Shown here piece after piece: positions 5,173 to 35,014 of a stretch of 35,324 nucleotides of DNA. Position 1 is the stretch's first letter. Each line of letters opens with the position of its first letter. Origin of the DNA: Nitrospirota bacterium (GTDB taxonomy: Bacteria; Nitrospirota; Thermodesulfovibrionia; Thermodesulfovibrionales; UBA6898); the NCBI GenBank assembly GCA_004321925.1, contig SCQH01000046.1, positions 1-35,324 of the forward strand. The letters run 5' to 3'. Below the pieces are notes generated by a model. It saw nothing but the letters and a program-made list of their open reading frames with translations. It made no database searches and was not told where the DNA came from. A program made the translations under genes and the position numbers.

Positions 5173-5196
5173 CTAACCTGAATGGGAGGAATATCA

Positions 5197-19286: not shown

Positions 19287-20003
19287 TCACCCTATCCGGC
19301 TGTCCAGACTGAATATCTGGCCGGTTATCGTCTCCGTGCCTGCCAGGAATACGACAAAATCAGCGATCTCCTGATCACTCGATAGTGTCTTAAGCAGGCT
19401 CTGCTCCTGTGCGTCCCTCTGCGCACTGCCGGCCTGAGACCCCATGTCCGTTGCGAGATATCCAGGCATGATGCCGTTCACCCGTATATTGCCTGCAGCA
19501 AGCTCCCGTGCTGCGGTCAGCGTCAGACCGAGCAGCCCGGCCTTGGACGCGCTGTAGGCAGGCTGTCCTGCCTTCCCCCTGAGGCCTGAGCGGGAGGCGA
19601 TGTTCATGATATGTCCTCCTCCAGATTGTATCACAAGAGGCGACATTGTCCCAATGATATTAAAACATCCGGTCAGGTTCGTTCCTATGATCAGGTCCCA
19701 TTCCTTCCCGGACTGCCGCAACAGCAGGTTGTCTTTTGATATTCCGGCATTGTTGATGACAAGGTCAAGGCGTCCATAGCGGGTCATGATCTCATTGGCC
19801 ATGGCACGGACCTGCCCGCGGTCACTGACGTCTGCCCTGAGCGCACAGGCGTTCCCCCCGGCCAGACGGGCCACGTCCTCTGCCTCTGCCTCGGCTGAAC
19901 AGTAGTTGATGATCACCGTATAGCTGCAGCGGGCCAGCCTTAGTGCAAGCGTCCTGCCGAGACCGCGCGAGGCCCCGGTTATCAGAGCGACCTTCATTTC
20001 CAT
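19287..20003 (-). CDS. Classical short-chain dehydrogenase, FabG-like
   Basis: This 238-residue SDR has TGASRGLG (9-16), NNAG (84-87) and the active-site Tyr150/Lys154 in YSASK, with the partner Ser in IASRSG. It also carries PGYLATDMG, common in 3-oxoacyl-ACP reductases. Placed before bioD it may act on a pimeloyl-chain intermediate of biotin synthesis, or be a general ketoreductase; context alone supports the former. An in-frame ATG at 19997 is an alternative start. The possible extended -10 directly upstream leaves almost no 5' leader. Confidence 0.82.
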   Translation of the reverse strand: MEMKVALITGASRGLGRTLALRLARCSYTVIINYCSAEAEAEDVARLAGGNACALRADVSDRGQVRAMANEIMTRYGRLDLVINNAGISKDNLLLRQSGKEWDLIIGTNLTGCFNIIGTMSPLVIQSGGGHIMNIASRSGLRGKAGQPAYSASKAGLLGLTLTAARELAAGNIRVNGIMPGYLATDMGSQAGSAQRDAQEQSLLKTLSSDQEIADFVVFLAGTETITGQIFSLDSRIG

Positions 20004-20012
20004 GATGGTGTT

Positions 20013-20021
20013 ATTGTATCA
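20013..20021 (-). promoter_or_regulatory. Candidate extended -10 promoter for SDR-bioD
   Basis: On the minus strand TGATACAAT matches the extended -10 form TGnTATAAT with one mismatch. It sits 10 bases before the SDR start codon, which would give a near-leaderless transcript. No good -35 is seen. Low confidence. Confidence 0.35.
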
Positions 20022-20076
20022 GATTGGATAACCGGCGCGGACCTTTGCTCGGGGGTTCGTTATTCCCGGCGAAATC

Positions 20077-20085
20077 TGGTAAAAT
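20077..20085 (+). promoter_or_regulatory. Candidate extended -10 promoter for the HEAT-repeat gene
   Basis: TGGTAAAAT (20077-20085) fits an extended -10 and lies 34 bases before the chosen ATG. No recognisable -35 box accompanies it. Confidence 0.35.
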
Positions 20086-20118
20086 AGAAAAAAAGCAGTA
20101 AAAGTGAAAGAGGGGATA

Positions 20119-20592
20119 ATGGGGTTCGAAAAAATGATCGAGGAATTAAAAAAGGGCAGTGGGTTGGGAAGGGCACGCGCTGCAGTGGAATTGGGGAAGC
20201 TGAAGGACGCCCGCGCTATCCCGGCGCTCCTGGCTGCGCTTCATGACCAGAATGCCGGGGTGAGGAACAACGCGGCATTCTCCCTGGGTGAACTGGGGGC
20301 TACCGAGGCCTGTCCCCAGCTTGTCACTATGTTGAAGGACCCTGAGGAATGGGTCAGGAAAAGCGCTGCCAAGGCCCTTGGCATGCTCCGGACCCCGGAG
20401 GCCCTGAAGCCGCTTGCCGGGGCGCTGGGTGATCCCTCATCCATGGTCAGAAAGAATGCGGTGCGGAGCATCAGCCAGATCGGCGGGTCTGAGGCCGAAA
20501 GCATTCTGTTTAAGGCTGCCTCGCATCTGGACACAACCGTATCCGGTCTTGCCAAAGATGCCCTGGAGCGTATGAACGGGACAGGCCAATAA
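20119..20592 (+). CDS. HEAT-repeat protein (PBS-lyase HEAT type)
   Basis: This 157-residue protein is built from about four ~31-residue helical repeats. Typical repeat phrases are RAAVELGKLKDARAIPALLAAL, RNNAAFSLGELGATEACPQLV and RKSAAKALGMLRTPEALKPL. Such repeats form a scaffold for protein contacts; no enzyme motif is present. ATG 20119 with GAGGGG just upstream is favoured over GTG 20104. It ends 13 bases from the convergent glutamate synthase operon. The partner is unknown. Confidence 0.82.
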   Translation: MGFEKMIEELKKGSGLGRARAAVELGKLKDARAIPALLAALHDQNAGVRNNAAFSLGELGATEACPQLVTMLKDPEEWVRKSAAKALGMLRTPEALKPLAGALGDPSSMVRKNAVRSISQIGGSEAESILFKAASHLDTTVSGLAKDALERMNGTGQ

Positions 20593-20605
20593 GCCGGTTA
20601 CGCCC

Positions 20606-23029
20606 TTAAATATTCTCTACCATCTCCCAGACGCCGCAGGGGCATATCCCGGCGCAGAAGCCGCAGCCGATGCATTTGGTATCGTCGACCACATATTCAT
20701 ATCCGCCGCCTTCACGTTCTATCCTGCTGATGGCGCCCCAGTAACAGGTGGCCTCGCACATATGGCAGTCCCTGCATGAGGCGCAGGACATGCATTTGTT
20801 CGCCTCCCGCTCAGGACTGAAGTCCCCGGTGCAGACGTCATAATACTCTTTTTTGATCCTCTCATACGGGATCATCTGCTTCACCTCGGGATTCCGGGGC
20901 GCATGCATCAGCTGGTAATGCACGGTCTCGGCCGTCAGTCTCCCCTGGCCGATCGCATGGGTGACCAGCCCGAGGCCGGTCACATCCCCGATCGCAAAGA
21001 CCTTCACGTCCGAGGTCTGGAAGATATCGTTGACCGCTATCCAGCCTCTTTCCGTATGGACGGAGGGGGGCAGAAGATCGAGTACCGGTACATCGCCGAT
21101 AGAGATGATGACCAGGTCGGCCTCAAGCGATGACCCGTCCTTGAAATAGATCTTCTTCTCTTCTTTGCTGTACCGCTCGGTGATCCTCGGCCAGAGGATC
21201 TGCGTCCCCTTTGCCGTTGCCGTATCAACCTCTTTGCCAAAGGCAGCCGGTTTCTGGATGTCGACCGCTATGACCGACGCGGCCCCGAAGTTGTAGGCCT
21301 CGGAAGCAACGTCCATCCCGACGTTGCCTGAGCCGATGACCACAACTTTTTTGCCCTTCAGGTCATGGACCGTTCCTGCGTTCGTTGCCTTGAGAAAATC
21401 ATACGCTGAGGTTGCATCTTCCGACCCGGGGAAGGGGATGATCCGCGGCTTCTGAGCGCCGATGGCTATGACGACGATCTCATGGTCCTTATAGATCTCG
21501 CTGAATTTTGTCTTGTCTATCGCCGCATTGAGGTGGACCTTCACCCCGAGCTCCGCGAACCGGGAGAGCTCTTTTTCGAGTATCTGATGCGGCAGGCGCT
21601 CACGCGGGATACAGTGTTCGATCTTGCCGCCGAGCTTGCCGGTCGCTTCGTAAAGGTCTACCGCATGTCCCTTGAGGGCAAGCTGCCAGGCAGTGCTGAG
21701 GCCTCCGGGTCCGCCGCCGATGACCGCTATCGTATGTCCGGTTGCCTTCTCCTTCTTCGGGGCAGGCAGCTCAAGGGCGAGGCTGCCGAGCTTGTCGATC
21801 TGCAGCGGCTTGTCAAGCTGTCCCCTGGTGCAGCTCATCATGCAGGGGTTCGGGCATATCTGGCCGCAGACCGTCGCCGGCAGAGGGCTGTACTTAAGGA
21901 CGAGCTCAAGCGATTCCTGCAGGAGTCCCTGCCGGATCAGGCTTGCCCTTTTATGCGAGGGTATCTGCGAGGGACAGGCATAGGCGCAGGGCGGTGCGAA
22001 CTTCTCGTTTGCCCATAACGGTTTGTTGCGCCTCTCCTTCCCCGTCGTGATATAGGGGAGAATGGTCTGATCATGGTCCAGGTATTCGGCAAAGATGCCT
22101 CCCTGTCCCGTCTCCTTTTCCCAGTGGTTCTTCCTGAAATCGGTCGTGCTCATCTTGAACCATTTGCGCGACCTCTTTTCCTGGGGAGTATAGGCCATTA
22201 ATTTTTTCCAGTCGCTGCTGGCCCTGGTCAGCTCCTCGTAATAGGAGATGCGGTCGATCGCCTCGAGATAGGGCCTCATATTCGTTTTCAGCCAGTCCCA
22301 GTCCTGCTCGGTCAGGTCAAGGAGCTTGACGTCCTTGTCGCTATACCCCTGGATGGGGCCGCGGAAATAGATCGCTCCGCCGACCATCCCGACGCACGGC
22401 CTGTAGCCCAGGATATTTTCGGGGTTCCTCGGGTTGACGCCGCAGACAACGGCAATGCCGCCGGCCTTGAATTCAGCGAACGAGTCACCCACATTCCTGA
22501 AATACCAGGATTGAGGGGGCTCAAACCGGGGGTTCTGCTTGGTCATGGTATCACAGCGGGCACCACCGCTGCCCTGGACATACAGCAGACCCTGGGCTGC
22601 GGCATTGAAGGCACCGTTCGTCACGTCTCCGAGCACGGTTATCTTTGCCCCGCAATTGATCCAGCCCGCATCGTCAGAGGCGCTGTTCTTGACGATGACC
22701 TCGGTGCCGGGCATGCCCATGCTTCCGACCCTCTGGCCGGCCGGACCCTCGATCGTTATCCTGACCGTCCCTTCCCTGGGCCATATGCGGCCGCCGATGC
22801 CGTGCTGTCCGTTTGCGATAATATGCAGCTCGCGCGCCCCGTTCTGTACAGCATCCTGGATCTGCTCCTCCAGGATGCGCGAAGGGACCCTCTGGCCCCT
22901 GACGCTGCCCTTTAAGACGGTGACCGATGATCCCGGCGCAGCGGACAGAGGTTTATTTATCTTCCCGGCAGTTTTCTTTGCTCTCTGCTCTTTGCTCTTT
23001 GCTGTCTTTATCTCGTTCTTAGCACGCAT
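20606..23029 (-). CDS. Glutamate synthase fusion: GXGXG domain, GltD-like NAD(P)H oxidoreductase, 2x4Fe-4S ferredoxin
   Basis: The third gene of a split glutamate synthase (807 residues). Residues 40-265 are the GXGXG beta-helix domain that is the C-terminal part of ordinary GltB. Residues 340-410 hold cysteine motifs of the GltD N-terminus. Residues 430-710 are the FAD/NAD(P)H module, with VIGGGPGGLST (437-446), VVIGSGNVGMDVA (563-575) and FAIGDVTGLG (678-687). Residues 746-800 carry two 4Fe-4S clusters (CRDCHMCEATC and CIGCGFCAGICP). The protein should take electrons from NAD(P)H or ferredoxin and pass them to the FMN subunit. ATG 23029 overlaps the upstream gene; GGGGAT lies before it. A heptamer repeat encodes part of residues 9-18. 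Confidence 0.9.
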   Translation of the reverse strand: MRAKNEIKTAKSKEQRAKKTAGKINKPLSAAPGSSVTVLKGSVRGQRVPSRILEEQIQDAVQNGARELHIIANGQHGIGGRIWPREGTVRITIEGPAGQRVGSMGMPGTEVIVKNSASDDAGWINCGAKITVLGDVTNGAFNAAAQGLLYVQGSGGARCDTMTKQNPRFEPPQSWYFRNVGDSFAEFKAGGIAVVCGVNPRNPENILGYRPCVGMVGGAIYFRGPIQGYSDKDVKLLDLTEQDWDWLKTNMRPYLEAIDRISYYEELTRASSDWKKLMAYTPQEKRSRKWFKMSTTDFRKNHWEKETGQGGIFAEYLDHDQTILPYITTGKERRNKPLWANEKFAPPCAYACPSQIPSHKRASLIRQGLLQESLELVLKYSPLPATVCGQICPNPCMMSCTRGQLDKPLQIDKLGSLALELPAPKKEKATGHTIAVIGGGPGGLSTAWQLALKGHAVDLYEATGKLGGKIEHCIPRERLPHQILEKELSRFAELGVKVHLNAAIDKTKFSEIYKDHEIVVIAIGAQKPRIIPFPGSEDATSAYDFLKATNAGTVHDLKGKKVVVIGSGNVGMDVASEAYNFGAASVIAVDIQKPAAFGKEVDTATAKGTQILWPRITERYSKEEKKIYFKDGSSLEADLVIISIGDVPVLDLLPPSVHTERGWIAVNDIFQTSDVKVFAIGDVTGLGLVTHAIGQGRLTAETVHYQLMHAPRNPEVKQMIPYERIKKEYYDVCTGDFSPEREANKCMSCASCRDCHMCEATCYWGAISRIEREGGGYEYVVDDTKCIGCGFCAGICPCGVWEMVENI
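22976..23003 (-). repeat. Heptanucleotide repeat (AGCAAAG)4 inside a coding region
   Basis: Four 7-base units on the minus strand (AGCAAAG twice, AGCAGAG, AGCAAAG) begin 27 bases after the start codon of the glutamate synthase fusion gene. They encode the Lys/Glu/Gln-rich residues 9-18. The same motif lies at 294-321. Because 7 is not a multiple of 3, a gain or loss of one unit would shift the frame. Slippage is not shown, only possible. Confidence 0.75.
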
Positions 23030-24680
23030 AGCTTATCCCCAGCCTCTCTGCCATTGCCTTGTCATCAATGCTCAGGCCGTCAGACATCCCGATCGGCAGT
23101 TCAGTGCTCCGGCCCATTGGGGCGAAGATCTTCTTGAGCTCGGTATCTGCCGATTTAAAGACCTCCACGACCCTTTCGGCAACCTTGTCGGGGTCCAGTC
23201 TCCGGTAGAGCTTCGGGTCCTGTGTGGTGATGCCCCTCGGGCACTGGCCGGTGTTGCAGAGGTTGCAGCGGTTATTTTCGTCACCGAAGCAGTCCGAAGC
23301 AGTCTGCATGATGTATTTGCCGATCGAAACAGCTGAAGCGCCGAGCATGATCAGCGCAGCGGCATTGGCTGCGAGATTCCCTTTTTTCCCGACACCGCCG
23401 GCCGCAATGAGAGGGAGCTCGTTCTGTTTGCCCTGCTTCACGAGGTCCAGGTAACATTCCCTCAGGTTCGAGGCGATCGGATGTCCCATCTTGTCCATCG
23501 AGACGTTATAGGCTGCGCCGGTCCCGCCGTCTTCGCCGTCGATGCTCAGGGCTGCGGCATAGGGGTTCCTGGCGAGGTTGTTGAGCACGGCACGCGCGGT
23601 CTTTGATCCCGAGATCTTCGGATAGACCGGCACCCTGAAGCCCCAGGCCATCGACATGGACTGGATCATCTTGGCGACCGCTTCCTCGATAGAATATTTT
23701 GTCTGGTGCGTCGGCGGGGACGCAAGGTCGACCATCTGCGGCACGCCGCGGATCTTCGCAATGAGCTTCAGCACCTTCTGCGCCATAAGGAGCCCGCCGT
23801 CACCGGGCTTGGCCCCCTGGCCGTACTTGATCTCGATGGCCGCAGGGTCTTCGATCATATGCGGGAGAGCATGGATGATCTCGTCCCACCCGAAATAGCC
23901 TGAGGCGATCTGGATAATGAAATACTTGAGGTATTTAGAGCGTAAAAGACGCGGCGGCATACCGCCTTCGCCGGAGCACATCACGACCGGCATTCCCTCT
24001 ACCTCGTTAAGATAGGCAACCCCCATGGCGAGGCCTTCCCACATCGGCGGGGAAAGCGCACCAATGGACATGCTGCCGATCATGATAGGGTAGATCTCCC
24101 TGACCGGCGGGACAAAGATATTGTTCCTGGCGTCGATCCCGAGTTTCCCGTTGACGACGCTCAGCGGCATGGCTTCAGGCGCAAGGACCCTTCCCAGCAG
24201 GGTCCTGATGCGGAACTCATGCCTGCCGGCGTCGAGGGCAGGGTCGGTGAGCATCGATATCCTGGTGAACTTCAGCCTGTCGAGGGTCGAGATCGACGGA
24301 TCGTTCCTTCTGCCTCCGCGCTTGTAGCCGTCGCCGCCCTTGTTCTTGTAATGCAGGAGCTTGTTGGCCGGGTTGAACTCCGGCTCGATCGCCTCGTTCG
24401 GGCAGACGAGCGCACAGGTCCCGCAGCCGGTGCAGTAGCGCTCCATGTTCGTGACCTGCTCGACCACCTGGACGGTCCTCCGGGTCGATCCGGGCGTCGG
24501 GATGGGGCCCTCTGAATGAACGGACCTCATGACCTTCACCGACGGTACGATCGCCTTGACCGGGCAGACCGCCGTACACCTGCCGCAGCGCTTGCAGCGG
24601 TCGTCCCTCCAGCGGATTATATAGGGGAACTCTCTGAGCGAGAGCTTATGATTATGGTCTAACCGTGAAGCTGGTTCCAT
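23019..24680 (-). CDS. Glutamate synthase FMN-binding subunit with N-terminal Fe-S domain
   Basis: The 553-residue synthase subunit turns 2-oxoglutarate plus ammonia into glutamate. Two 4Fe-4S ferredoxin motifs lie at the N-terminus (Cys29/32/35/39 and Cys83/86/89/93). An FMN-binding TIM barrel follows (about 145-520) with GSMSIGALSPPMWEGLAMG, CSGEGGMPPRL, IKYGQGAKPGDGG, DGEDGGTGAA and AAGGVGKKGNLAANAA. The 3Fe-4S site appears as CNLCNTGQCPRGI. This arrangement, without amidotransferase or GXGXG domains, is the archaeal-type split form. It overlaps both neighbours, so the three subunits are translationally coupled. Confidence 0.93.
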   Translation of the reverse strand: MEPASRLDHNHKLSLREFPYIIRWRDDRCKRCGRCTAVCPVKAIVPSVKVMRSVHSEGPIPTPGSTRRTVQVVEQVTNMERYCTGCGTCALVCPNEAIEPEFNPANKLLHYKNKGGDGYKRGGRRNDPSISTLDRLKFTRISMLTDPALDAGRHEFRIRTLLGRVLAPEAMPLSVVNGKLGIDARNNIFVPPVREIYPIMIGSMSIGALSPPMWEGLAMGVAYLNEVEGMPVVMCSGEGGMPPRLLRSKYLKYFIIQIASGYFGWDEIIHALPHMIEDPAAIEIKYGQGAKPGDGGLLMAQKVLKLIAKIRGVPQMVDLASPPTHQTKYSIEEAVAKMIQSMSMAWGFRVPVYPKISGSKTARAVLNNLARNPYAAALSIDGEDGGTGAAYNVSMDKMGHPIASNLRECYLDLVKQGKQNELPLIAAGGVGKKGNLAANAAALIMLGASAVSIGKYIMQTASDCFGDENNRCNLCNTGQCPRGITTQDPKLYRRLDPDKVAERVVEVFKSADTELKKIFAPMGRSTELPIGMSDGLSIDDKAMAERLGISYAC

Positions 24681-25768
24681 ACCTTTACCTCCTGTGCCTG
24701 CGGCGAAATGATGACCATGTCGTACTTCATGGGGTAAAAGTCCTTCTCTCTGTCTCTTTTCGGGACTGCGCTGTCAACGCCGCATTCCTCTGACATGAGC
24801 GCGTATCTTCCTTTGACGCCGCCCACAACGCCGGGCCTCAGCTTCTTGGAGTCCTGGACCATAAAACAGGTGCCGTCAGGGGTGAAGCCGATGACCATGT
24901 TCGGGCCGTCGATGCAGAGGGGCCTCAGAGACTGCTTCATCAGCCGGATAGCGTCCCGGTCCTCCCTCTGTTCTATCTCCGCCGCCTTCAGCGGTGTGAT
25001 CACATCCTTGTAGTACGGCAGCGGAAAGCCGAGCTGCCTGACCGAGTAATGCAGGATGTGGGTGAAGACCTCGCTGTCGCTGTTATATCCCATATAGCCA
25101 GGGAAGCCCCTGCCGGAGAGGAACTCACGGATCGGCACAAAGGCGGTGTTCTCGCCGTTGGTCATCGAGCAGTAGCCCTGTATGAAGAACGGGTGGCAGG
25201 CATAGAGATAGATCGCATAGTTCGTGTTCTGCCTGCCCTGGGCAAGGACCACGCGCGCCGAGAGGCTGTCCTTGTCGAGACCGAAGAACTCGGCCACTTC
25301 AAGCGGATCGCCGACCTCTTTAAGGGTGATAACATCAGGATAAAAGGAAAAGGCGAAGATGGACCCGTCCGGCTCGCCGACCTTTCGTATGCCGAGGCGG
25401 GTATGCATGAGCAGGTCTTCCTTTTCGGGCAGGGACCTGTTTTTGAACGCTGCAGGATAATCATAGGCCCGGGCGAAATAATGGTCGCGGGCAGCGATCC
25501 CTTTGACCGGCTTTATCTTCGGCCTCCACTCATGCTTCAGCGTAAACCCGCGGCTCTTCATGTAGGCATCGAGCGTTTTCTTCCCGTCCTGAGAGCAGAT
25601 GCCCGAAAGGACCGGATATTTCTTGAGCTTCTCGAATTCCCCGCCGAGGTCCTTCAGCGTCAGGCCCAAACCTGAACCGTCGTGCCCTTCCTTCATCGTC
25701 TCAAGGGCCAGGATCGGCTCCAGCGGGGAGATGTAATCTTTGGATGTAATCGCAGCCAGTCTGCACAT
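24659..25768 (-). CDS. Glutamate synthase class II glutamine amidotransferase subunit
   Basis: The 369-residue N-terminal nucleophile amidotransferase releases ammonia from glutamine for the synthase subunit. The start was set at 25768 so that the protein begins Met-Cys-Arg-Leu-Ala; after Met removal Cys becomes the catalytic N-terminal residue, and TGAGG lies 8 bases upstream. A longer version would bury the cysteine and be inactive. Other class II traits are GHDGSGLGLTL near 41 and the MTNGENTAFV segment. It is the first gene of the glt operon, preceded by a promoter and a terminator-like leader hairpin. Confidence 0.9.
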   Translation of the reverse strand: MCRLAAITSKDYISPLEPILALETMKEGHDGSGLGLTLKDLGGEFEKLKKYPVLSGICSQDGKKTLDAYMKSRGFTLKHEWRPKIKPVKGIAARDHYFARAYDYPAAFKNRSLPEKEDLLMHTRLGIRKVGEPDGSIFAFSFYPDVITLKEVGDPLEVAEFFGLDKDSLSARVVLAQGRQNTNYAIYLYACHPFFIQGYCSMTNGENTAFVPIREFLSGRGFPGYMGYNSDSEVFTHILHYSVRQLGFPLPYYKDVITPLKAAEIEQREDRDAIRLMKQSLRPLCIDGPNMVIGFTPDGTCFMVQDSKKLRPGVVGGVKGRYALMSEECGVDSAVPKRDREKDFYPMKYDMVIISPQAQEVKVWNQLHG

Positions 25769-25808
25769 GTCATTAACCTCAAAAAGTATTCTTCCTGCAA
25801 CTACCGGC

Positions 25809-25848
25809 AAAAAAAGCGTCTATACCAATCCTCCGATATCAGACGCTT
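25809..25848 (-). terminator. Leader terminator / attenuator hairpin of the glutamate synthase operon
   Basis: On the minus strand AAGCGTCT (25848-25841) pairs perfectly with AGACGCTT (25821-25814). After one bulged base an inner ATATC/GGTAT stem extends it, leaving an 8-base loop GGAGGATT. A run of seven T (25815-25809) follows. It stands between the promoter (25872-25901) and the first start codon (25768), with no gene upstream on that strand. It therefore looks like a regulated terminator rather than the end of another gene. Confidence 0.7.
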
Positions 25849-25871
25849 GGCCAGTGATAACCAACAGCTTA

Positions 25872-25901
25872 ATTATATAAAACTGGACAAAATCTTTTCA
25901 A
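25872..25901 (-). promoter_or_regulatory. Sigma70 promoter of the glutamate synthase operon
   Basis: On the minus strand TTGAAA (25901-25896) and a perfect TATAAT (25877-25872) are 18 bases apart. Transcription should begin near 25865, about 17 bases before the leader hairpin and about 97 before the start codon. Confidence 0.7.
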
Positions 25902-25992
25902 CAAAGACTATCCGGCAGGGACAATAATATGCGAGCCCCGCTCTGACCGCCAAAAGGCTTGCTAAAGCCGGCAAACATGACGACAATATCAT

Positions 25993-26916
25993 ATGCCTCA
26001 GGAAACGGATAACAGACAGAGCCCGTCGGCCGGATACGTTTACGCCATAGCGGCTGCAGGGTTCTGGGCGGTCTCAGGGACGCTCTCGAAGTCGCTCTTC
26101 ATCGCAGGGACAACTCCCTTTGAGCTGGTCCAGCTCAGGACCACGATCGCTGCCGCAGTGCTTTTCATCTGGCTCATTATCAGAAGCCCGTCAGCCCTGC
26201 GCATCAGGCGCAGCGACCTCCTCTATTTTCTCCTGCTCGGGATAACGCTTGCGGTCTCTCAGGTGACCTATCTCTATGCCATCAGCAGGATACAGGTGGC
26301 TGCTGCGATCCTGCTGCAGTATCAGGCCCCGGTTTTTATCGCCCTGTATGCGGTCCTGTTCAGCCACAAGCGGTTGTCGGTCCCGGTCGTTGTCGCTATT
26401 ATGGCTGCAGTTGCCGGCTGCTACCTGGTTTCCGGTGTCTACGGCCATCATATAACAGGTTTTGACCGGGCCGGTCTTTTCGCCGGTCTCGGCTCTGCCC
26501 TCACCTTTGCGGTATACTCGGTAAAAAGTGAATACGGCATGCAGCGCTACCGGCCCCTGAGCGTTGTTTTCTATGCACTGCTTTTTGCCGCAGTCTTCTG
26601 GAATATCGTTGAACTGCCGTTTTCGGCCTTTGCACAGGTTCAGGGGACTACCGCATGGCTTAAGATAGGTTTTATCGGGGTCTTCGGGACGATCATCCCC
26701 TTTGTCTTTTACAATACCGGGATCAACCGCATCGGCGCGATCCGCGCCGGTACCGCATCGACCATGGAGCCGGTCTTTGCCGGGGTGTTAGCCTGGTCCT
26801 TCCTCGGCGAGGTCCTTGCCCCGCCTCAGATGGTCGGTGCCATGCTGGTGATCGCGGCCGTCATCCTGCTGCAGTTGGAGCGGCAGCAGGTTAAAACGGC
26901 AGCCGATCCTTCCTGA
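25993..26916 (+). CDS. EamA/DMT-superfamily transporter
   Basis: This 307-residue integral membrane protein has about ten hydrophobic segments in two EamA halves. The first half includes YVYAIAAAGFWAVSGTLSKSLF, and the second begins near AGLFAGLGSALTFAVYS. A conserved end-of-helix motif, GTASTMEPVFAGVLAWSFLGE, is near the C-terminus. DMT proteins export or import amino acids, sugars or other metabolites; the substrate cannot be predicted. No strong ribosome binding site precedes ATG 25993. It is divergent from the glt operon. Confidence 0.85.
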   Translation: MPQETDNRQSPSAGYVYAIAAAGFWAVSGTLSKSLFIAGTTPFELVQLRTTIAAAVLFIWLIIRSPSALRIRRSDLLYFLLLGITLAVSQVTYLYAISRIQVAAAILLQYQAPVFIALYAVLFSHKRLSVPVVVAIMAAVAGCYLVSGVYGHHITGFDRAGLFAGLGSALTFAVYSVKSEYGMQRYRPLSVVFYALLFAAVFWNIVELPFSAFAQVQGTTAWLKIGFIGVFGTIIPFVFYNTGINRIGAIRAGTASTMEPVFAGVLAWSFLGEVLAPPQMVGAMLVIAAVILLQLERQQVKTAADPS

Positions 26917-26947
26917 AAAAAAAAGGCCCCGTGGTCTGCACGGGGCC
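26916..26947 (-). terminator. Terminator of the DsrE-like gene
   Basis: A perfect 9-bp stem, GGCCCCGTG (26925-26933) with CACGGGGCC (26939-26947), is followed on the minus strand by nine T. It ends the DsrE-like transcript. In the plus direction there is no T run. Confidence 0.9.
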
Positions 26948-26964
26948 AAAGTGATGGGGAGGGA

Positions 26965-27354
26965 CTATATGTTGAGCTGAAAGGGCTGATACCCCTCCAG
27001 CAGCAGTTCACCCAGGAATGAGCTTGCCTTGACCTCGGTGTTCCTGATGAGGTCATCCTTTGAGATCCCGAAGGCCGGCATGAAGGCATGGCAGACGTAG
27101 AATTTCACCTTGAAGTCATCGATCAGGGTATTGAGCATATCCGCTACCACGATCTTCTGCCCTTCCATCTCCATCGAAATGGATTCAGCTATTCCTTTTT
27201 TGGCAAGTTGGACCCCGCCGCCGATGAGGAAGAAGTCCAGGGCAACGCTGTCATCAAAGGCCTTCATATTGAGGGCGATCTTCATGAGGCCGATCACCTC
27301 GATGGGCTTCTCGGTTGAGTGAGAAAGCACAAAAATAAATTTCTTCTTGTCCAT
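26965..27354 (-). CDS. DsrE/DsrF-like small sulfur-relay family protein
   Basis: This 129-residue alpha/beta protein has FIFVLSHSTEKPIEVIGLMKIALNM at the N-terminus, a glycine loop FLIGGGVQL and VKFYVCHAFMPAFGI. Cys88 sits where DsrE-family proteins carry their active cysteine. The family includes sulfur carriers and peroxiredoxin-like proteins of anaerobes. GGAGG precedes the ATG and a perfect sigma70 promoter lies upstream, so expression is probably high. It stands alone between two terminator/promoter signals. The sulfur role is inferred from family resemblance. Confidence 0.72.
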   Translation of the reverse strand: MDKKKFIFVLSHSTEKPIEVIGLMKIALNMKAFDDSVALDFFLIGGGVQLAKKGIAESISMEMEGQKIVVADMLNTLIDDFKVKFYVCHAFMPAFGISKDDLIRNTEVKASSFLGELLLEGYQPFQLNI

Positions 27355-27401
27355 AAAAACCTCCTGGTTAAAATAAGTTTAAGAGTTGCATACTTTAGAA
27401 T

Positions 27402-27430
27402 ATTATAGACAATAGAAAAAAAGATGTCAA
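27402..27430 (-). promoter_or_regulatory. Perfect-consensus sigma70 promoter
   Basis: On the minus strand TTGACA (27430-27425) and TATAAT (27407-27402) are exactly 17 bases apart. Transcription would start near 27395, about 40 bases before the DsrE-like start codon. No operator-like dyad overlaps it, so it may be constitutive. Confidence 0.85.
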
Positions 27431-27494
27431 CAAAATCAGGATACAAAGAGGAGAAAATGTCTCAGAAAGAAACGCGCGTCAAGCGCCTGTTGTC

Positions 27495-27731
27495 CTAATA
27501 CTCCCGCCATTCCATCGGGACAACGTGGTCGATGGCAAAATTGTTGAGCTGGATGACCAGTTTGTCTGCCTCTTTATACTGCTGATCAACAAACGGCTTC
27601 AATTCCCTTATCTCTGGAGTATCGTCCGTGGTGGTGTTGAGATAGGCCCTGAACTCTTTCCATTCCGAGCGCGCAGAAACTTCCTGTAACCTTGCATAGA
27701 GCTTATTGCTATAATGGTGCATGTGATACAT
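27495..27731 (-). CDS. Small hypothetical protein
   Basis: This 78-residue, mostly helical and charged protein begins MYHMHHYSNKLYARLQE and ends with VVPMEWREY. No family is recognised. It has no signal peptide, no membrane segment and no cysteine. It is divergent from the UPF0178 gene. Its ribosome binding site is weak, so it could be a chance frame, but its composition looks protein-like. Confidence 0.5.
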   Translation of the reverse strand: MYHMHHYSNKLYARLQEVSARSEWKEFRAYLNTTTDDTPEIRELKPFVDQQYKEADKLVIQLNNFAIDHVVPMEWREY

Positions 27732-27797
27732 GATAATCCGCGGGAAATCTTCGAGCGATAATAAGTGACGTATTTGTCCGCAATGAAAGGAATTTCT

Positions 27798-28250
27798 GTG
27801 ATCAGGTTATTCATAGACGCAGACGCCTGTCCGGTGAAGAATGAGGTATTCCGTGTTGCCCGGCGGTACCGACTGAAGGTATATCTTGTATCTAACTCAT
27901 CGATGCGGATACCTCCCGACGAATCCATTGAACTGATCATTGTGCATGAAGGTTTCGATGCTGCTGATGATTGGATCGCAACGCACATCACTGAAACCGA
28001 TATAGCGGTCACTGCAGACATTCCGCTTGCAGCGCGCTGCCTGAAAAAAGGCGCCCGGGTGCTTGATCCCAAGGGGCGGGTGTTCAGCGAGGACTCTATC
28101 GGCGAGGCATTGGCGACCCGGGAGTTTACAGCCTTTCTGCGCGATATGGGCACCATAACCGGCGGCCCGCCGCCTTTTGAACCAAGGGATCGCTCCCGCT
28201 TTTTGCAGCGACTGGACGAGATCATTCATGCAATCATGCGGGGATATTAG
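27798..28250 (+). CDS. UPF0178 (YaiI/YqxD) family protein
   Basis: This 150-residue protein starts IRLFIDADACPVKNE, the family hallmark with acidic residues as in PIN/NYN-type nucleases. DADDWIA-like and TADIPLAARCLKKGARVLDPKG segments follow, and RDMGTITGGPPPFEPRDRSRFLQRLD ends it. The molecular role is unknown; an RNA- or metal-related nuclease is a family-level guess. GTG 27798 with AAAGGA 6 bases upstream fits the family start better than ATG 27765 or 27783. Confidence 0.85.
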   Translation: MIRLFIDADACPVKNEVFRVARRYRLKVYLVSNSSMRIPPDESIELIIVHEGFDAADDWIATHITETDIAVTADIPLAARCLKKGARVLDPKGRVFSEDSIGEALATREFTAFLRDMGTITGGPPPFEPRDRSRFLQRLDEIIHAIMRGY

Positions 28251-28291
28251 TGGATTAATACAAAAAGAAGAAAGTTGGGAGGTAGTTTTAT

Positions 28292-28396
28292 TTGAAAAAG
28301 AGAATCGAATTGAAGGCCTACCTGGGTGCCGTGGCGACCCTGCGCCGGAGCGCTTCGCTTACGCGGCAGGAATTTGAGGCAGAGCGTTACCCGTAA
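28292..28396 (+). CDS. Possible small ORF
   Basis: A 34-codon frame starts at TTG 28292 with GGGAGG nine bases upstream. It encodes a basic peptide rich in Arg and Leu ending ERYP. It fills part of the 28251-28513 gap, where nothing else is evident. No homologue is recognised and it may be a chance frame or gene remnant. Confidence 0.25.
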   Translation: MKKRIELKAYLGAVATLRRSASLTRQEFEAERYP

Positions 28397-28513
28397 ATTC
28401 AAACTGGTGATCCGGCAGGCGGCAGGAGAGTCGTAGATCCCGCTTTTATTCAGGGATGACAGCGGAGAAATGCCGATGACCGGGCAGGAGGAGCAGAGGA
28501 GAAAAGTGAGTTT

Positions 28514-29266
28514 ATGGAAATTGTGGATCTGATCTTCGGATGTGTCGGAAAGTTACCAGAGTGGCTATGGTTCGTGATAGTGGGCGGGCCTCTTCTGGCA
28601 ATGTTTCTCTTTCATCTCTCCCTGGGGCCGCGTCGCAGCGCCCAATGGAAACGGATTGCCCTGCTGCTCGGCTTTGAGTACAACGGTGGAGATAACAGCA
28701 TGGTCAGGGCACTGAAGCCGGTCGGTTCGCACATTGCTGTCGATGGGTTTGAGACGCGGGTGCTGGAGGTACTCAGCAACGAAGAGCGGGGAGTCCAAAG
28801 ATGGCTTCTCGACCATGCCGGCAGCAAACCGCGTACGCTTTGCACGGTATGCGTCATGCGCAGCAGCGGACTTCATCTCCCTTACTTCAGACTTTTGTCC
28901 GGGAGCTCAGTGCGGTTGCCGAAAGAGCAGGTCGTCTTCCAGGAAGACCAGGAATTTTCGCGGATATTTATGCTGATAACTGATGACCCGGCTGCAATAA
29001 AGCGTCTGTTCGATCCCCTGGTGCGCCGTCACTTTGTGCGGTTATTTTATCGCTGCCGGGAACTCGAACGGGCAAATACTGACAGGCTTGACCTGCTGAT
29101 GCTTCGGGTCTCAAATGCGATCGGACGTTTTGAGGTCGAGGCTTCCGGCGACACGGTGAGTGTCCGCCTCAGCCGCCTTATCAACCCTCAAGGCGCCCCT
29201 GAATTTCTTGCCCTGACCGAAGAAACCCTGCAGATCCTTAAAGGCAAGCAGGGTGAGATGGGTTAA
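28514..29266 (+). CDS. Hypothetical membrane-anchored protein
   Basis: This 250-residue protein has one hydrophobic segment near the N-terminus (about 16-37, WLWFVIVGGPLLAMFLFHLSL). A soluble domain with FETRVLEVLSNEERGVQRWL, RLLSGSSVRLPKEQ and a helical region LVRRHFVRLFYRCRELE follows. A likely N-in/C-out or N-out/C-in anchor cannot be decided. No known domain is recognised. It may be linked to the following thioredoxin-domain gene, 56 bases downstream, but that is proximity only. Confidence 0.65.
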   Translation: MEIVDLIFGCVGKLPEWLWFVIVGGPLLAMFLFHLSLGPRRSAQWKRIALLLGFEYNGGDNSMVRALKPVGSHIAVDGFETRVLEVLSNEERGVQRWLLDHAGSKPRTLCTVCVMRSSGLHLPYFRLLSGSSVRLPKEQVVFQEDQEFSRIFMLITDDPAAIKRLFDPLVRRHFVRLFYRCRELERANTDRLDLLMLRVSNAIGRFEVEASGDTVSVRLSRLINPQGAPEFLALTEETLQILKGKQGEMG

Positions 29267-29322
29267 AATACCAAAAGAGGATAGACTATGCGATATAGAG
29301 ATAAGAAAGGGAGAATAAAATA

Positions 29323-31098
29323 ATGAACAGGCTTGGCAGTGAACGGTCACCTTACCTGAGGCATGCTGCAGACCAGCCTATCGACTGGTACCCGTGGTCG
29401 GACGAGGCCTTTCAGAGGGCGGCGGATGAGGACAAGCCCGTGTTCTTAAGTTCCGGCGCGGTCTGGTGCCACTGGTGCCATGTTATGGCGAAGGAGTGTT
29501 TTTATAATGAAGAGATCGCCGGGATGCTCAACAGGGACTTCATCTGCATCAAGCTCGACCGGGATGAGCGGCCCGACATCGACCGCCGGTATCAGCAGGC
29601 GGTCGTCGCGATAGCCGCGGCAGGCGGCTGGCCGCTCAGTGTCTTCCTCATGCCGGACAAGCGCCCTTTTTTCGGGGGCACCTATTTCCCCCCTGACGAC
29701 AGCCATGGAAGGCCCGGTTTTAAAAAAGTGCTGGCAGCCCTCCTGGACTTCTTCAAAACAAAAAGGGCCGAGGCCGATGAATATACCCAAAGGCTGCTTG
29801 AGCATCTGAGACAGGAGGGACCTGCTGCCGGAGAGCTCAGCCCGGCCATGGCCGACAGGGCAGCAGAATCCATCCTTGCGGCATTCGATTCAGCGAACGG
29901 CGGGTTTGGACAGTTCCCGAAGTTCCCGATGCCCGGAGCCATTGAGTTCCTTACCTCCCGGTATTCCCGGACGCATGACGAGTCCTCTGCCAATGTGATC
30001 AGAAGGACCCTTTCGGCCATGGCCCGGGGCGGATTCCATGACCAGTTGCAGGGCGGCTTTCACCGGTATTCGGTTGACGAGGCCTGGTTCGTCCCGCATT
30101 TCGAAAAGATGGCTGACGATAATGCCTGGCTTCTCAGGAATTATGTCTCGGCATATTCTCTTTTTGGTGATGCATATTATAAAGAGGTAGCGGAGGGGAT
30201 CGTCAGGTTTTCGAGAGAGGTGCTGTCAGCCCCTGAAGGCGGCTTTTATGCAAGCCAGGACGCTGATGTGACCCCCGACGATGAAGGCGGCTACTTCACC
30301 TGGACCGACGAAGATCTCCGGAGGGTGCTGGATGAGGATGAGTACCGGGTCCTGTTCCTGCATTACTTTTCACCGAGGGGCAGGATGCATCATGATGACA
30401 AAAAGCATGTCCTCTGCATAGCAAAAGAGCCTGAGGAGATTGCGGAGATGACCGGCCTGGAGGCTTCTCGGGTACAGGAGCTTATCAGCTCTGCCAGAAA
30501 GAAACTGCTTGCCGAACGAAGCGGAAGGGTTGCCCCGTATCTGGATACGACCATCTATACCTCGTTGAACGGGTTGTTCATCACGGCCTATATGAAGGCA
30601 TATAAGGCCCTCGGGGACGATAGCATCCGGGAGTTCGGCCTGGCCAGCCTTGACCGGATATTAAAAGAGCATGTCGCTGACGGCCGGCTCTATCACTGCA
30701 GCAATATTCCTGCCCTGCTTGACGATTATGTTTTTCTCATCGAGGCGCTGCTGGCGGCATATGAGGCCACTGCTGACCGGAAGCATCTGAGCCGGGCCGA
30801 AGAGTTCATGGAGACCTGCATCGAAAAGTTCTGGGACAGTTCCTCCGGCGGCTTCTTTGACGCAGAAGAAAAGCTGCTCGACATAACTCTCAAGCAGGTC
30901 GAAGATATCCCGCACCCTTCAGCCAATGCAGTGGCAGTGGTCTGCCTGCTGGAGCTTCAGAGGGCCCTGGGCAATGACCGGTACCTCCGTCATGCTGAAG
31001 ACTCTTTGAAGGCCTTTGCAGCCAGGGTTCCGGAGATGGGCCTGCATGCCGGATATTATTTCCGGGCATTGGACCTCTATTTTCAACTCAATGGCTGA
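29323..31098 (+). CDS. YyaL/SSP411-type thioredoxin-domain protein (DUF255)
   Basis: This 591-residue protein has an N-terminal thioredoxin-like domain. It contains SPYLRHAADQPIDWYPW, the CHWC redox site (Cys49/Cys52) and RDERPDIDRRYQQ. An (alpha/alpha)6 glycosidase-like region (about 170-590) with GGFHDQLQGGFHRYSVDE, PHFEKM and NGLFITAYMKAY follows. Family members are often 650-700 residues; this one appears to lack the C-terminal tail and overlaps the next gene by 8 bases. The physiological role is unknown; relatives are suggested to act in redox or carbohydrate metabolism. GGGAG precedes the ATG. Confidence 0.85.
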   Translation: MNRLGSERSPYLRHAADQPIDWYPWSDEAFQRAADEDKPVFLSSGAVWCHWCHVMAKECFYNEEIAGMLNRDFICIKLDRDERPDIDRRYQQAVVAIAAAGGWPLSVFLMPDKRPFFGGTYFPPDDSHGRPGFKKVLAALLDFFKTKRAEADEYTQRLLEHLRQEGPAAGELSPAMADRAAESILAAFDSANGGFGQFPKFPMPGAIEFLTSRYSRTHDESSANVIRRTLSAMARGGFHDQLQGGFHRYSVDEAWFVPHFEKMADDNAWLLRNYVSAYSLFGDAYYKEVAEGIVRFSREVLSAPEGGFYASQDADVTPDDEGGYFTWTDEDLRRVLDEDEYRVLFLHYFSPRGRMHHDDKKHVLCIAKEPEEIAEMTGLEASRVQELISSARKKLLAERSGRVAPYLDTTIYTSLNGLFITAYMKAYKALGDDSIREFGLASLDRILKEHVADGRLYHCSNIPALLDDYVFLIEALLAAYEATADRKHLSRAEEFMETCIEKFWDSSSGGFFDAEEKLLDITLKQVEDIPHPSANAVAVVCLLELQRALGNDRYLRHAEDSLKAFAARVPEMGLHAGYYFRALDLYFQLNG

Positions 31099-31678
31099 GC
31101 TTCCGGCACTTGTTGTGATCATGGTATGGCCGGTCATCCCGCTATTTTGGATCCCGGTCCATGGTCTGCCGAAGGTCTTTAAAAAGCTCGGTCTGCTCAG
31201 CTATATTGTCCCCGCGGTCCTATGGCTCCCGCTTGCCTTTATTATCTATTCAAACAGGATGGTCATCCTGTCAGGCAGGGTCGGACTGCCGGGCGGTGTG
31301 ATAGCGGCCGGCAGTATCATTTTCATCCTCGGGGCCGGCCTTCAGGTCTGGACGGCCAGGCTGCTTACGATGAAGGGGATCATGGGCATGCCCGAGGTCT
31401 CGGCAGCGGTGGAAGGCAGGTTCGTCACGAGCGGGCCTTTTGCGGTCGTCAGGCATCCCACCTACCTGTCGCACACGCTGATGTTCCTCGGCATCTTCCT
31501 GATGACCGGTTTTCATGCCCTGGGGTATCTGACCCTGCTCGACCTCCTTCTCGTCGCTCTCATCATCATCCCTCTCGAAGACCGGGAGCTGTCCGGCCGG
31601 TTCGGTCCTGCCTATGACGAATACCGCAAAAGGGTCCCGGCCTTTTTCCCGTTTAAAAGGCCCGGCAGAAATAGGTAG
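31091..31678 (+). CDS. Isoprenylcysteine carboxyl methyltransferase-like integral membrane protein
   Basis: This 195-residue protein has several membrane segments and the ICMT/PEMT-family C-terminal motifs. SGPFAVVRHPTYLSHTLMFLG binds the methyl donor. PLEDRELSGRFGPAYDEYRKRVPAFFPF follows at the end. Bacterial relatives methylate lipids or small molecules; the substrate here is unknown. ATG 31091 lies just inside the end of the thioredoxin-domain gene and is preferred over an in-frame codon at 31016. It ends ahead of the higBA pair, which runs the other way. Confidence 0.78.
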   Translation: MAELPALVVIMVWPVIPLFWIPVHGLPKVFKKLGLLSYIVPAVLWLPLAFIIYSNRMVILSGRVGLPGGVIAAGSIIFILGAGLQVWTARLLTMKGIMGMPEVSAAVEGRFVTSGPFAVVRHPTYLSHTLMFLGIFLMTGFHALGYLTLLDLLLVALIIIPLEDRELSGRFGPAYDEYRKRVPAFFPFKRPGRNR

Positions 31679-31757
31679 CCGCTGAATTCTTGAGAAGTTG
31701 TTTTATCGGTCGTGCCCGCGAGAAAGCGGCGTTATTGTAAGCACAAAAAAGGTTTTT

Positions 31758-32054
31758 CTATGCATGCGCGAGTGCGCGTATACCAGCAAGTCGTTTGCCG
31801 ATACTCGCTTTTGCAATCTTAAGGTCATAAGCCGACTGAAGATTGAGCCAGTACTGCGGAGTCTGGTTGAACGCGCGACCGAAAAGCAAAGCCAGTTCTG
31901 CCGTGACCGGCCGGTCGCCCTTGATGACATGAGAAATCCGCATGGGCGAAACGCCAACTGATCGGGCGAACTCAGCTTGTGATAATCCCATTTCACCCAG
32001 AATTTCCGCCAGGAACTCGCCCGGATGGATTGCGGGCAGACCATTCTTAATCAT
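31758..32054 (-). CDS. higA: HigA-type antitoxin
   Basis: This 98-residue Xre-family helix-turn-helix protein begins LPAIHPGEFLAEIL and has LSQAEFARSVGVSPMRISHVIKG as its DNA-binding motif, typical of HigA. It should bind and neutralise HigB and repress the operon at the palindrome 32357-32377. AAAGGAG precedes ATG 32054. Longer readings upstream add an unlikely tail. It lies 13 bases after the toxin gene, the toxin-first order usual for higBA. Confidence 0.93.
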   Translation of the reverse strand: MIKNGLPAIHPGEFLAEILGEMGLSQAEFARSVGVSPMRISHVIKGDRPVTAELALLFGRAFNQTPQYWLNLQSAYDLKIAKASIGKRLAGIRALAHA

Positions 32055-32067
32055 GTTCGTATCTCCT

Positions 32068-32349
32068 TTAATGATAATCAACGATCTCAACGTCATACGC
32101 GTCACCTTTTTCAAAGCGGAAGCAGATCCGCCACTGATCGTTAATGCGTATACTCCATTGACCTGCACGGTCGCGAGCTAATGCCTCCAGCCTGTTTGAG
32201 GGCGGAATTCGTAAATCGTCAAGACAAGTAGCACCATCAAGTTGGGTCAAACGCATTGCCGCACGTTTCAGTATATCCTGCGGAAATCGACGTGATTTCC
32301 CGGTGGCAAAGAAACGATCGGTTTCCGGAGAGGCAAACGATTGAATCAC
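32068..32349 (-). CDS. higB: HigB-type toxin (RelE superfamily mRNA interferase)
   Basis: This 93-residue protein reads from GTG 32349 as (M)IQSFASPETDRFF, the typical HigB start. It ends RINDQWRICFRFEKGDAYDVEIVDYH, with the conserved basic and aromatic residues of ribosome-dependent mRNA endonucleases. Extending to 32409 would add 20 residues without family support. The GTG lies about 7 bases after the -10 box, so the transcript may be leaderless. In this family the toxin cuts translated mRNA until HigA binds it. Confidence 0.92.
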   Translation of the reverse strand: MIQSFASPETDRFFATGKSRRFPQDILKRAAMRLTQLDGATCLDDLRIPPSNRLEALARDRAGQWSIRINDQWRICFRFEKGDAYDVEIVDYH

Positions 32350-32355
32350 AGGAAT

Positions 32356-32384
32356 ACTATAAACAAAATGTTTATAGAAGTCAA
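32356..32384 (-). promoter_or_regulatory. higBA sigma70 promoter
   Basis: On the minus strand TTGACT (32384-32379) and TATAGT (32361-32356) are 17 bases apart, each one base off consensus. The predicted transcription start coincides with the HigB GTG at 32349. The dyad operator fills the spacer and the -10. Confidence 0.75.
32357..32377. promoter_or_regulatory. higBA palindromic operator
   Basis: CTATAAACA (32357-32365) and TGTTTATAG (32369-32377) form a perfect 9-bp dyad around AAA. It overlaps the -10 and spacer of the higBA promoter, so HigA or the HigBA complex bound here would block RNA polymerase. Confidence 0.8.
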
Positions 32385-32512
32385 GCGGAGGTTCCGTGAG
32401 GCTGATCATATGTCATTTTTACGAGATCAAATTTGGCGTCATGAAGTAAATCGCATGCCTTCATCAACGCTTGGCCGTCATTTATTTCAATATGCACCAA
32501 ATTATTATTCAT
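32381..32512 (-). CDS. Small hypothetical ORF upstream of higBA
   Basis: A 43-codon frame runs from ATG 32512 to a TGA at 32381-32383, at the edge of the higBA -35 box. The peptide begins MNNNLVHIEINDGQALMKAC and looks protein-like, but no family is recognised. A stop codon sits just upstream of the ATG. It could be a remnant of a larger gene. The stretch 32513-32656 shows no other gene. Confidence 0.35.
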   Translation of the reverse strand: MNNNLVHIEINDGQALMKACDLLHDAKFDLVKMTYDQPHGTSA

Positions 32513-32656
32513 TGTCGTAGTCTAACGCGGACGTACCCCGTTTATCGGGCTGACGGACTGGCTGCAAGTTTCCTCCTGTTGCTCGCAAGTTGTTTAAGTT
32601 GGCAACGTCCCCTACTTCTCACCTTAAACTGCTCACTCCATCTTTCGATAGTCCTC

Positions 32657-33523
32657 TTATTCCTCCGGATTATCGCTGCAGCTCTGCTTACCCACGACCC
32701 ATTCGCCTTTCTCTTTCTTCATATCGATCGTGCAGTATCTTTTTTCTTTGCCTGCATGATCGGTAATAAACAGCACACCTTTGTCTCCATTGATATAACC
32801 TTCGACAAACTTAGGGTTCTTCGGCATCATCGCAACAGCAAGCTCCTTCATCATCTTCAGTTCCTCATCAGACATATTCTTTGCCTCATCCGGAGGGACC
32901 ATCTTCCTCATCTCCTTGATATCCATGCTTTTTACTTTCTTGTTATACGCAAGATACGCCTTCCATGTATCTCCGCCGTCTGCAGGGAGTTTCGTGCCGA
33001 CCTTTTTGCTCTGGGGAGCCGATATGTCTGCGCTGAAGGTGATGTCATAGCTGTACGAAACATCATCGAATCCTGATTTCTGGGGAGACTTTGTGAACGA
33101 GCGGCCGGAGATAGAACTGCCGGTAACCGCCTTTGGTTCGAAAACCTGGAAGCTAGACCCGCCGCCTACGGTCATTTTGAATCGGTTATGACTCACTTCG
33201 AAACTTATCACCTTTTTGTCGGCATCGATCGTATGCCTGACACAGTGCAATTTCCCGGCCTTCACCTGGTCATAAATCCCCATGGGTTCCTTTGCAACCT
33301 CAACGGTAACCGGGGCATCGCACATAAGCACTACCACATCCTTCTTCTTTTTGTCGAAGAAGCCCGGTTGTGAATATGCAAGAACATGCTTTATCTCAAC
33401 CGTCTTTCCGTCAACGGTGAGCTTTCCCTTTGCAGTGTTTTCGGCACCTGCCGGTACAACATTAACAGCAAGCATGAAAATTCCCAGGCAAATTGCAGCA
33501 ACTGCTGATAAATAACTTTTCAT
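32657..33523 (-). CDS. Exported hypothetical protein
   Basis: This 288-residue protein has a clear signal peptide (hydrophobic about 7-25, cleavage likely after PAGA). The mature part is rich in Lys and has four cysteines (in VLMCDAP, LHCVRH, RYCTID and KQSCSDN) that could form two disulfides. A helical stretch around MKELAVAMMPKNPKFVEGYI follows strands with VSHNRFKMTVGGGSSFQVF. No known family is recognised. GGGGAGGAA precedes the ATG, and TATAAT on the minus strand (33583-33578) is a possible -10 without a good -35. Confidence 0.72.
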   Translation of the reverse strand: MKSYLSAVAAICLGIFMLAVNVVPAGAENTAKGKLTVDGKTVEIKHVLAYSQPGFFDKKKKDVVVLMCDAPVTVEVAKEPMGIYDQVKAGKLHCVRHTIDADKKVISFEVSHNRFKMTVGGGSSFQVFEPKAVTGSSISGRSFTKSPQKSGFDDVSYSYDITFSADISAPQSKKVGTKLPADGGDTWKAYLAYNKKVKSMDIKEMRKMVPPDEAKNMSDEELKMMKELAVAMMPKNPKFVEGYINGDKGVLFITDHAGKEKRYCTIDMKKEKGEWVVGKQSCSDNPEE

Positions 33524-33634
33524 TTGATTCCTCCCCTGTCCGATGTTTGCGGCAAGTCCGCAATATTTATGTTGCTGATTATAATCCTTAGTGGGTTTAT
33601 TTCTGATAATAGTTCATGTGCTCAATAATCCCCC

Positions 33635-33747
33635 TGAAAATATTGGGGATGTGGTGTCCCACGTGTCATTCCTATCATCGCTAAGCCTGGCATAGTTTAT
33701 TATCCTTGTATAAGGCCATTCAGGACACAAGGTCCCGGATTGCTTCA
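33635..33747 (+). mobile_element. MITE-like element, copy A
   Basis: This ~113-bp sequence matches copy B (34902-35014) at roughly 100 positions by eye, in the same orientation. It has an identical core from about 33664 to 33693. Its ends are partly mirrored (GGGGATGTGGTGTCC versus GGACACAAGGTCCC), so the terminal inverted repeats are decayed. It has no gene of its own, so any movement would need a transposase elsewhere. It lies 5 bases after the stop of the 190-residue unknown gene. Confidence 0.7.
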
Positions 33748-33752
33748 TTTTG

Positions 33753-34325
33753 TTAGACCTTTTCTGTGTTATTAAGGCTCAAGACGTGCGATACAACTGA
33801 GAGTGGCAAATCAGTTAGCCATATCCCGGCATTCTTTATGACAAGAGAGCTGCGTACTCCGTCTTTGTTGATTTCATCGAAGTAAATTGCTAATCCGCTC
33901 TTGAAAGCTTTCAGCAAATCATTAACATGTACAGCGAGGATGTTAGGGTGATTGATGATCTTGCCTGCTTTCTTTAAATGCTCTACTGTTGCATCTCCCC
34001 AAGCGTATGTTATTTCACGAGCTTTTCCGCATCTAGAAAGATCTGACTCGGCCGCCATGGTATGAAGAATTCCACAACGAGCACCATATAACTCTAATCC
34101 CGAGCAACCGATAGGATATGCTTTCAACATATAGGAATCTACCCATCGAATGAAATTTGCTTTGGTGCCAGTATTCGGTTTTCGTTCTAAAGCACCAACG
34201 ACATCGATTCCACTATATAGAAGCATAAGCGCTGGCATAATCAGTTTTTTATCAATGCAAATCTCTATTGCGCTGATTAAGCCACTAAGGTTTCTATTGA
34301 GATTGTTTGTAATTTGCACACTCAT
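33753..34325 (-). CDS. Hypothetical helical protein with HEPN-like Rx4H motif
   Basis: This protein of about 190 residues is predicted as all alpha-helical. It contains MLLYSGIDVVGALERKPN near the N-terminus, a conserved-looking LELYGARCGILHT with Arg83-x4-His88, and SRCGKAREITYAWG after it. Rx4-6H is the catalytic motif of HEPN RNases, common in toxin and defence systems, but a short motif alone is weak evidence. ATG 34325 was chosen; an in-frame TTG at 34340 is the alternative. It follows the 158-residue gene by 73 bases, and both lie between the two MITE copies. The function is unknown. Confidence 0.65.
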   Translation of the reverse strand: MSVQITNNLNRNLSGLISAIEICIDKKLIMPALMLLYSGIDVVGALERKPNTGTKANFIRWVDSYMLKAYPIGCSGLELYGARCGILHTMAAESDLSRCGKAREITYAWGDATVEHLKKAGKIINHPNILAVHVNDLLKAFKSGLAIYFDEINKDGVRSSLVIKNAGIWLTDLPLSVVSHVLSLNNTEKV

Positions 34326-34398
34326 ATATTCGCAGCGCAAATATCCTGCTCAAGTGCAAAGTCTATATGGATGCTGCCTTTATCGGTCATCATCTTAT

Positions 34399-34875: not shown

Positions 34876-34901
34876 ACCCTTCTCCAGAACGACGAGTTGA
34901 G

Positions 34902-35014
34902 TGAAAATTTGGGGGACGTTGTGTCCCAAGTGTCATTCCTATCATCGCTAAGCCTGGCATTATTTATTATCCTTCATAAGGCCATTCAGGACACAACGTC
35001 CCCAAATTGCTTCA
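34902..35014 (+). mobile_element. MITE-like element, copy B
   Basis: This 113-bp element has nearly perfect terminal inverted repeats. AATTTGGGG-GACGTTGTGTCC at 34906-34926 mirrors 34989-35008 with one extra G. The element has the same core as copy A. It fills the gap between the partial membrane gene (stop at 35015) and the 158-residue gene. No target-site duplication could be recognised with confidence. Confidence 0.75.

Follow-up and report, generated by a model that had tools for sequence, protein, structure and literature searches.

This study found that the leader of a split glutamate synthase operon carries a hairpin followed by a run of T, for which the role of intrinsic terminator is well supported by comparison with related sequences, and we give a probability of about 0.5 to the reading that this terminator acts as an attenuator of the operon and forms the remaining layer of its control. 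The window, by which we mean the whole stretch of 35,324 nucleotides analysed, comes from a Nitrospirota bacterium of the order Thermodesulfovibrionales, and the features of the leader and the operon are collected in Table 1.

Table 1. Features of the leader and the genes of the split glutamate synthase operon, in window positions.
Feature	Position	Strand	Description
Promoter	25872..25901	-	TTGAAA 25901-25896, 18-nt spacer, TATAAT 25877-25872; 11 of 12 consensus matches
Start-site stretch	25847..25871	-	Place of the NrpR-type operator in relatives; unrecognisable in the window
Probable terminator hairpin, AAGCGTCTG..TAGACGCTT	25814..25848	-	Fold and comparison with relatives
T-run of seven	25809..25815	-	First two T able to pair with AA at the stem foot
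First gene, 369 aa	24659..25768	-	ATG 25768, GAGG ribosome site upstream
Second gene, glutamate synthase FMN domain with ferredoxin-like N-terminus	23019..24680	-	Pfam PF01645, E 6e-63
Third gene, GXGXG domain, GltD-like oxidoreductase and ferredoxin domain	20606..23029	-	Domain search

The operon consists of three overlapping genes on the minus strand. Its first gene is taken, from the Met-Cys N-terminus and the position, as the probable glutaminase part of the split enzyme; the protein gave no match to Pfam or NCBIfam models (with Pfam, none even at E values up to 1), and its full-length orthologues in the order share 69-89% identity. The ATG was taken as the start of this gene, the TTG at 25810 in the list of open reading frames being a mechanical start only. 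The second gene also matches glutamate synthase large chains in the PDB.

The promoter TTGAAA-18-TATAAT proposed by the first-pass annotation was confirmed on the minus strand. In the region 20000-35324, two promoter sites reaching 11 or more of the 12 matches were observed against a mean of 0.1 in 30 simulated sequences, and a promoter this good rarely arises by chance. Transcription is predicted to start near 25865, and the hairpin with its seven T begins about 17 nt later, ahead of the first gene, just as had been claimed; the predicted RNA up to the end of the T-run measures 56 nt, and the energy of the hairpin is -14.3 kcal/mol. A GC-rich stem with a T-run directly 3' of it, as is the case here, is the mark of an intrinsic terminator, and its location between promoter and first gene is the layout of an attenuator, the same succession of promoter and hairpin being also present in relatives. 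Folding of the window RNA alone is unremarkable (z -1.5, with 15 of 200 shuffles folding equally well); as a single sequence the fold is unexceptional, and it is the comparison with other leaders that lifts the hairpin beyond chance. Elsewhere in the window a tidy single-gene unit occupies 27430-26925 of the minus strand: its promoter matches the consensus perfectly (TTGACA-17-TATAAT, 27430-27402), a DsrE-like gene follows (26965-27354), and the unit closes with a terminator of nine perfect pairs and nine T (26947-26925).

Counting the window's own genome, 54 of 61 genomes have an orthologue of the first gene, and 80 named loci place this gene family in Thermodesulfovibrionales, Nitrospirota. 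The 109 leaders compared comprise 52 from the first genome set and 57 new ones, 23 of the 80 named loci being duplicates; two of them (L024 and L183) are N-masked and were left out of the first hairpin count and of the operator counts, which leaves 107 readable leaders. The status of nrpR covers 101 genomes, with 50 of the 57 new genomes taken and the others set aside as likely near-duplicates (L108, L109, L112, L122, L136, L148) or as masked (L183); G070, with a match below the cut-off, was scored negative, and G072 was scored positive on a partial match.

With a first finder (six or more stem pairs, then T5), hairpins were observed in 44 of 107 leaders against 2.1% of 535 simulated sequences, three of the 44 (L035, L047, L175) lying far upstream and being chance-like. 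A second, anchored finder, which required a T-run of at least six, gave 48 hairpins, from which four were dropped as chance (L035, L047, L113, L167) and two because their hairpin was another one, which overlaps the operator (L034, L037); the hairpin and T-run were thus kept in 42 of the 109 leaders of the Thermodesulfovibrionales first gene. The exact form of the hairpin, GCGTCT-N8..38-AGACGC-T6, is found in 16 of 61 genomes, in a single copy in each and always just upstream of the first gene, while the reversed pattern, used as control, gave one match in the 61 genomes. The first-pass annotation had named relatives lacking the hairpin as evidence against an attenuator, and on this point the outcome is divided: the hairpin is kept in each of the 10 leaders that could be read from the window's genus and the sister genus g5, and more than half of the leaders of the order, by the first finder, are without it.

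Among homologous leaders the outer stem was found to change on both arms: each of its pairs 1-5 occurs among the 41 distinct hairpins in forms differing on both sides, including changes from G-C to C-G and from T-A to C-G. Most of these two-sided changes come from five sequences (L013, L018, L036, L038, L052), which might have acquired their terminator separately. In another lineage, L182 alone changes two stem pairs. For register, the hairpins of L003, L008 and L159 were shifted by one base, and in L172 the arms were placed manually; since pairing counted among the criteria by which the 42 hairpins had been chosen, the percentage of pairing that they show is circular. Over the 42 hairpins the energy has a median of -17.75 kcal/mol, and the RNA, counted up to the last T of the run, has a median length of 68 nt. 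Judged from these comparisons the hairpin is a selected element, and the stem changes, T-run, energy and conservation together point to an intrinsic terminator positioned so as to restrict how much transcription reads through into the operon; the proposed terminator between promoter and gene thus gains support from both its conservation and its two-sided stem changes, and we infer that transcription terminates there in the cell. The triplet after the T-run (window 25808-25806) is GCC in 25 of the 42 leaders, and C is its last base in 41, a likeness which may be due to common ancestry.

Lying in the untranslated 5' leader of a protein-coding gene, the hairpin could instead be a stabiliser of the RNA or a pause element and no terminator. 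We consider this very improbable, for the T-run following all 42 hairpins is 6-8 long and, although six were required by the finder, counts seven in 33 of them, and in the window leader about 30 nt separate the T-run from the ribosome site. It is likewise improbable that the terminated leader, of about 60-70 nt, serves as a small RNA with targets elsewhere and that read-through is secondary. Such an RNA would be short and would have its own terminator, as here, but beyond the outer stem and T-run the leader varies widely, even between the window and L002, which leaves little conserved seed, and the element is always found ahead of the first gene.

With regard to the factor that could act on the terminator, the first-pass annotation had proposed CsrA/RsmA from two GGA triplets exposed in the loop. 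The two triplets are indeed present in the hairpin of the window, but the loop in the predicted fold is the six bases GAGGAU and not GGAGGATT; among the 42 hairpins, GGA occurs between the arms in six and twice in only one, that of the window. CsrA was not found in the window's genome nor in any of the 27 genomes of its family, the window's included, by a search which matched 16 of 61 relatives and three controls. Within the reach of the CsrA family model, control by CsrA is refuted for the window's genome, and we give this reading next to no weight.

Antitermination by ANTAR proteins, of the Geobacter GnfR type, is known for nitrogen genes that stand behind leader terminators. The window's genome differs from that system in having no match to the ANTAR domain, and ANTAR antitermination is ruled out for it; the search was able to find such proteins, since 2 of 61 relatives matched, and it gave no match in the controls. 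One of the two, G042, has the terminator. The statement that no known nitrogen riboswitch is present agrees with our Rfam search of the window, which gave no family at the leader, its sole match being an SAH riboswitch (RF01057, 60.3 bits, 5086-5174, plus strand) directly upstream of the S-adenosylhomocysteine hydrolase gene (5182-6594), an ordinary known arrangement. A leader peptide was rejected, as the window leader has no ATG from the predicted start to the T-run (alternative starts were judged by eye). In the predicted folds of the leaders no common alternative, antiterminator structure was seen. Pairing of a 5' AGACG with the CGTCT of the terminator, considered by eye, was rejected as a general antiterminator because the motif, present in L003, L004, L014 and L016, is missing from L009 and the window. 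Near the amtB and PII genes of the window's genome no sigma-54 site was found.

In many relatives a palindrome, typically ACGGCAAACGGTTACCGT or ACGGTAACCGTTTGCCGT, lies directly after the -10 box, its core GGYA-N6-TRCC being located at the transcription start. By its sequence this core agrees with the NrpR operator of methanogens, which earlier reports give as GGAA-N6-TTCC (PMC2723118) and GGTA-N6-TACC (PMC3177094); 2-oxoglutarate releases NrpR (PMC11957540), and certain Bacteria are reported to have NrpR as well (PMC2723118). The NrpR domain PF01995 was detected in 26 of 61 relatives and two archaeal controls; of 50 further genomes, 25 gave a match above the cut-off. The NrpR of two relatives was examined and has the architecture of winged helix and NRD, one of them matching the Methanocaldococcus structure 3nek. 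Judged by sequence, both marks of an NrpR regulon, an nrpR gene with these domains and the operator at nitrogen genes, are thus found in relatives. Bacterial nrpR genes were observed to adjoin PII genes (in L066, where nrpR is followed by the PII and glutamine synthetase genes, and in L059); operators adjoin glutamine synthetase genes in L070 and L078, lie one gene upstream of them in L071 and L072, and stand at a sigma-54 activator gene in L073. The names of these neighbouring genes rest on their translations, with Pfam matches in addition for the activator and PII, and the loci of L066, L059, L070-L073 and L078 make up a candidate bacterial NrpR regulon.

An exact operator within 200 bases of the first gene was observed in 39 of the 46 genomes with nrpR and in 8 of the 55 without (Fisher p 4e-13, kinship ignored). 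The test corrected for the tree has six supported independent pairs, on average 3.7 for and 0 against, with a median p of 0.125, and the link between operator and nrpR, which do go together, is therefore weak and suggestive only once kinship is counted. The operator was found without nrpR in L022, L025, L039, L129, L137, L138, L140 and L153, and nrpR without the exact operator in L011, L040, L045, L050, L152, L163 and L167. Reading of the operator as an RNA hairpin is less likely than as a DNA site, because its common form GGCAAACGGTTACC leaves a C-A mismatch. L034 and L037 both have nrpR, and in these two genomes the operator forms part of a hairpin that looks like a terminator, AATAGGCAAACG..TTTGCCTATT and then T, so that some bases belong to the repressor site and the terminator alike.

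In the window's genome nrpR was not found by profile search with PF01995, and the window has no GGYA-N6-TRCC operator within 200 bases of the first gene. Its start-site stretch contains TTGGTTATCACTGGCCAA (25864-25847), which is absent from the nearest relative, L002. Two members of the window's genus (L003, L008) and several of a sister genus have an altered operator close to ACGGCATGCGGYTAACGT and no nrpR, which we interpret as probable decay after loss of the repressor; the operator was presumably lost in the window's lineage as well.

On the attenuator reading, the polymerase would start near the predicted site, transcribe a leader of about 56 nt and, in many rounds, stop at the T-run, and the operon would be transcribed only by read-through, so that the terminator would work as an attenuator. 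Relatives would often have two layers, an NrpR-type repressor site over the transcription start and then the terminator; with nrpR absent from the window's genome and the operator unrecognisable, the terminator would be the layer that remains. The level of read-through would not be a fixed fraction but would be set by some factor that is neither CsrA nor an ANTAR protein. Counted against the attenuator are the many leaders of the order without the hairpin, the lack of a conserved antiterminator and the low distinction of the window's own fold.

It is possible, and in our judgement somewhat doubtful, that the terminator is real and acts merely as a fixed throttle, a constant and unregulated read-through lowering the output of a strong promoter, with control exerted by NrpR at initiation in the relatives and by something else or nothing here. 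The absence of a conserved alternative fold, of a CsrA or ANTAR protein and of an Rfam element speaks for such a throttle, as does the finding that the terminator is not positively linked to nrpR (14 of 46 genomes with the gene have it, and 28 of 55 without). Against it stands an argument rather than a test, namely that a weaker promoter would do, yet the layout has been kept in many lineages. We rank an attenuator with a factor of its own as the likeliest reading, followed by the fixed throttle, the small RNA and, last, the stabiliser.

Attenuators of the trp, pyr and bgl type have an intrinsic terminator in the leader. The window leader resembles these in its succession of promoter, short leader, GC-rich hairpin with T-run and operon, but differs from them in having no ATG leader peptide, no conserved antiterminator and no known RNA-binding regulator. 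The relatives share with the NrpR regulon of methanogens the repressor, with winged helix and NRD, and the operator GGYA-N6-TRCC at nitrogen genes, and differ from it by a bacterial -35/-10 promoter and, often, a terminator behind the operator; the window's genome differs by being without nrpR and operator. In the portions of the literature on NrpR in Thermodesulfovibrio and Nitrospira and on glutamate synthase attenuators that were covered, such two-layer control of glutamate synthase was not found described, and among the titles on glutamate synthase attenuators consulted none treats this leader element.

We tentatively propose, as a rather speculative view, that Thermodesulfovibrionales may combine an archaeal-type NrpR on a bacterial start site with a conserved terminator having its own read-through factor, and that in the window's lineage, the repressor being lost, the RNA layer alone may have taken over nitrogen control. 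What was a guess from a single genome has become a conserved and testable element in a poorly studied phylum, with the idea of CsrA removed from it. The data also point to a regulon of an archaeal-type nitrogen repressor in bacteria, and the lineages that have the leader terminator without the repressor would offer a test of how nitrogen control proceeds after loss of the master repressor.
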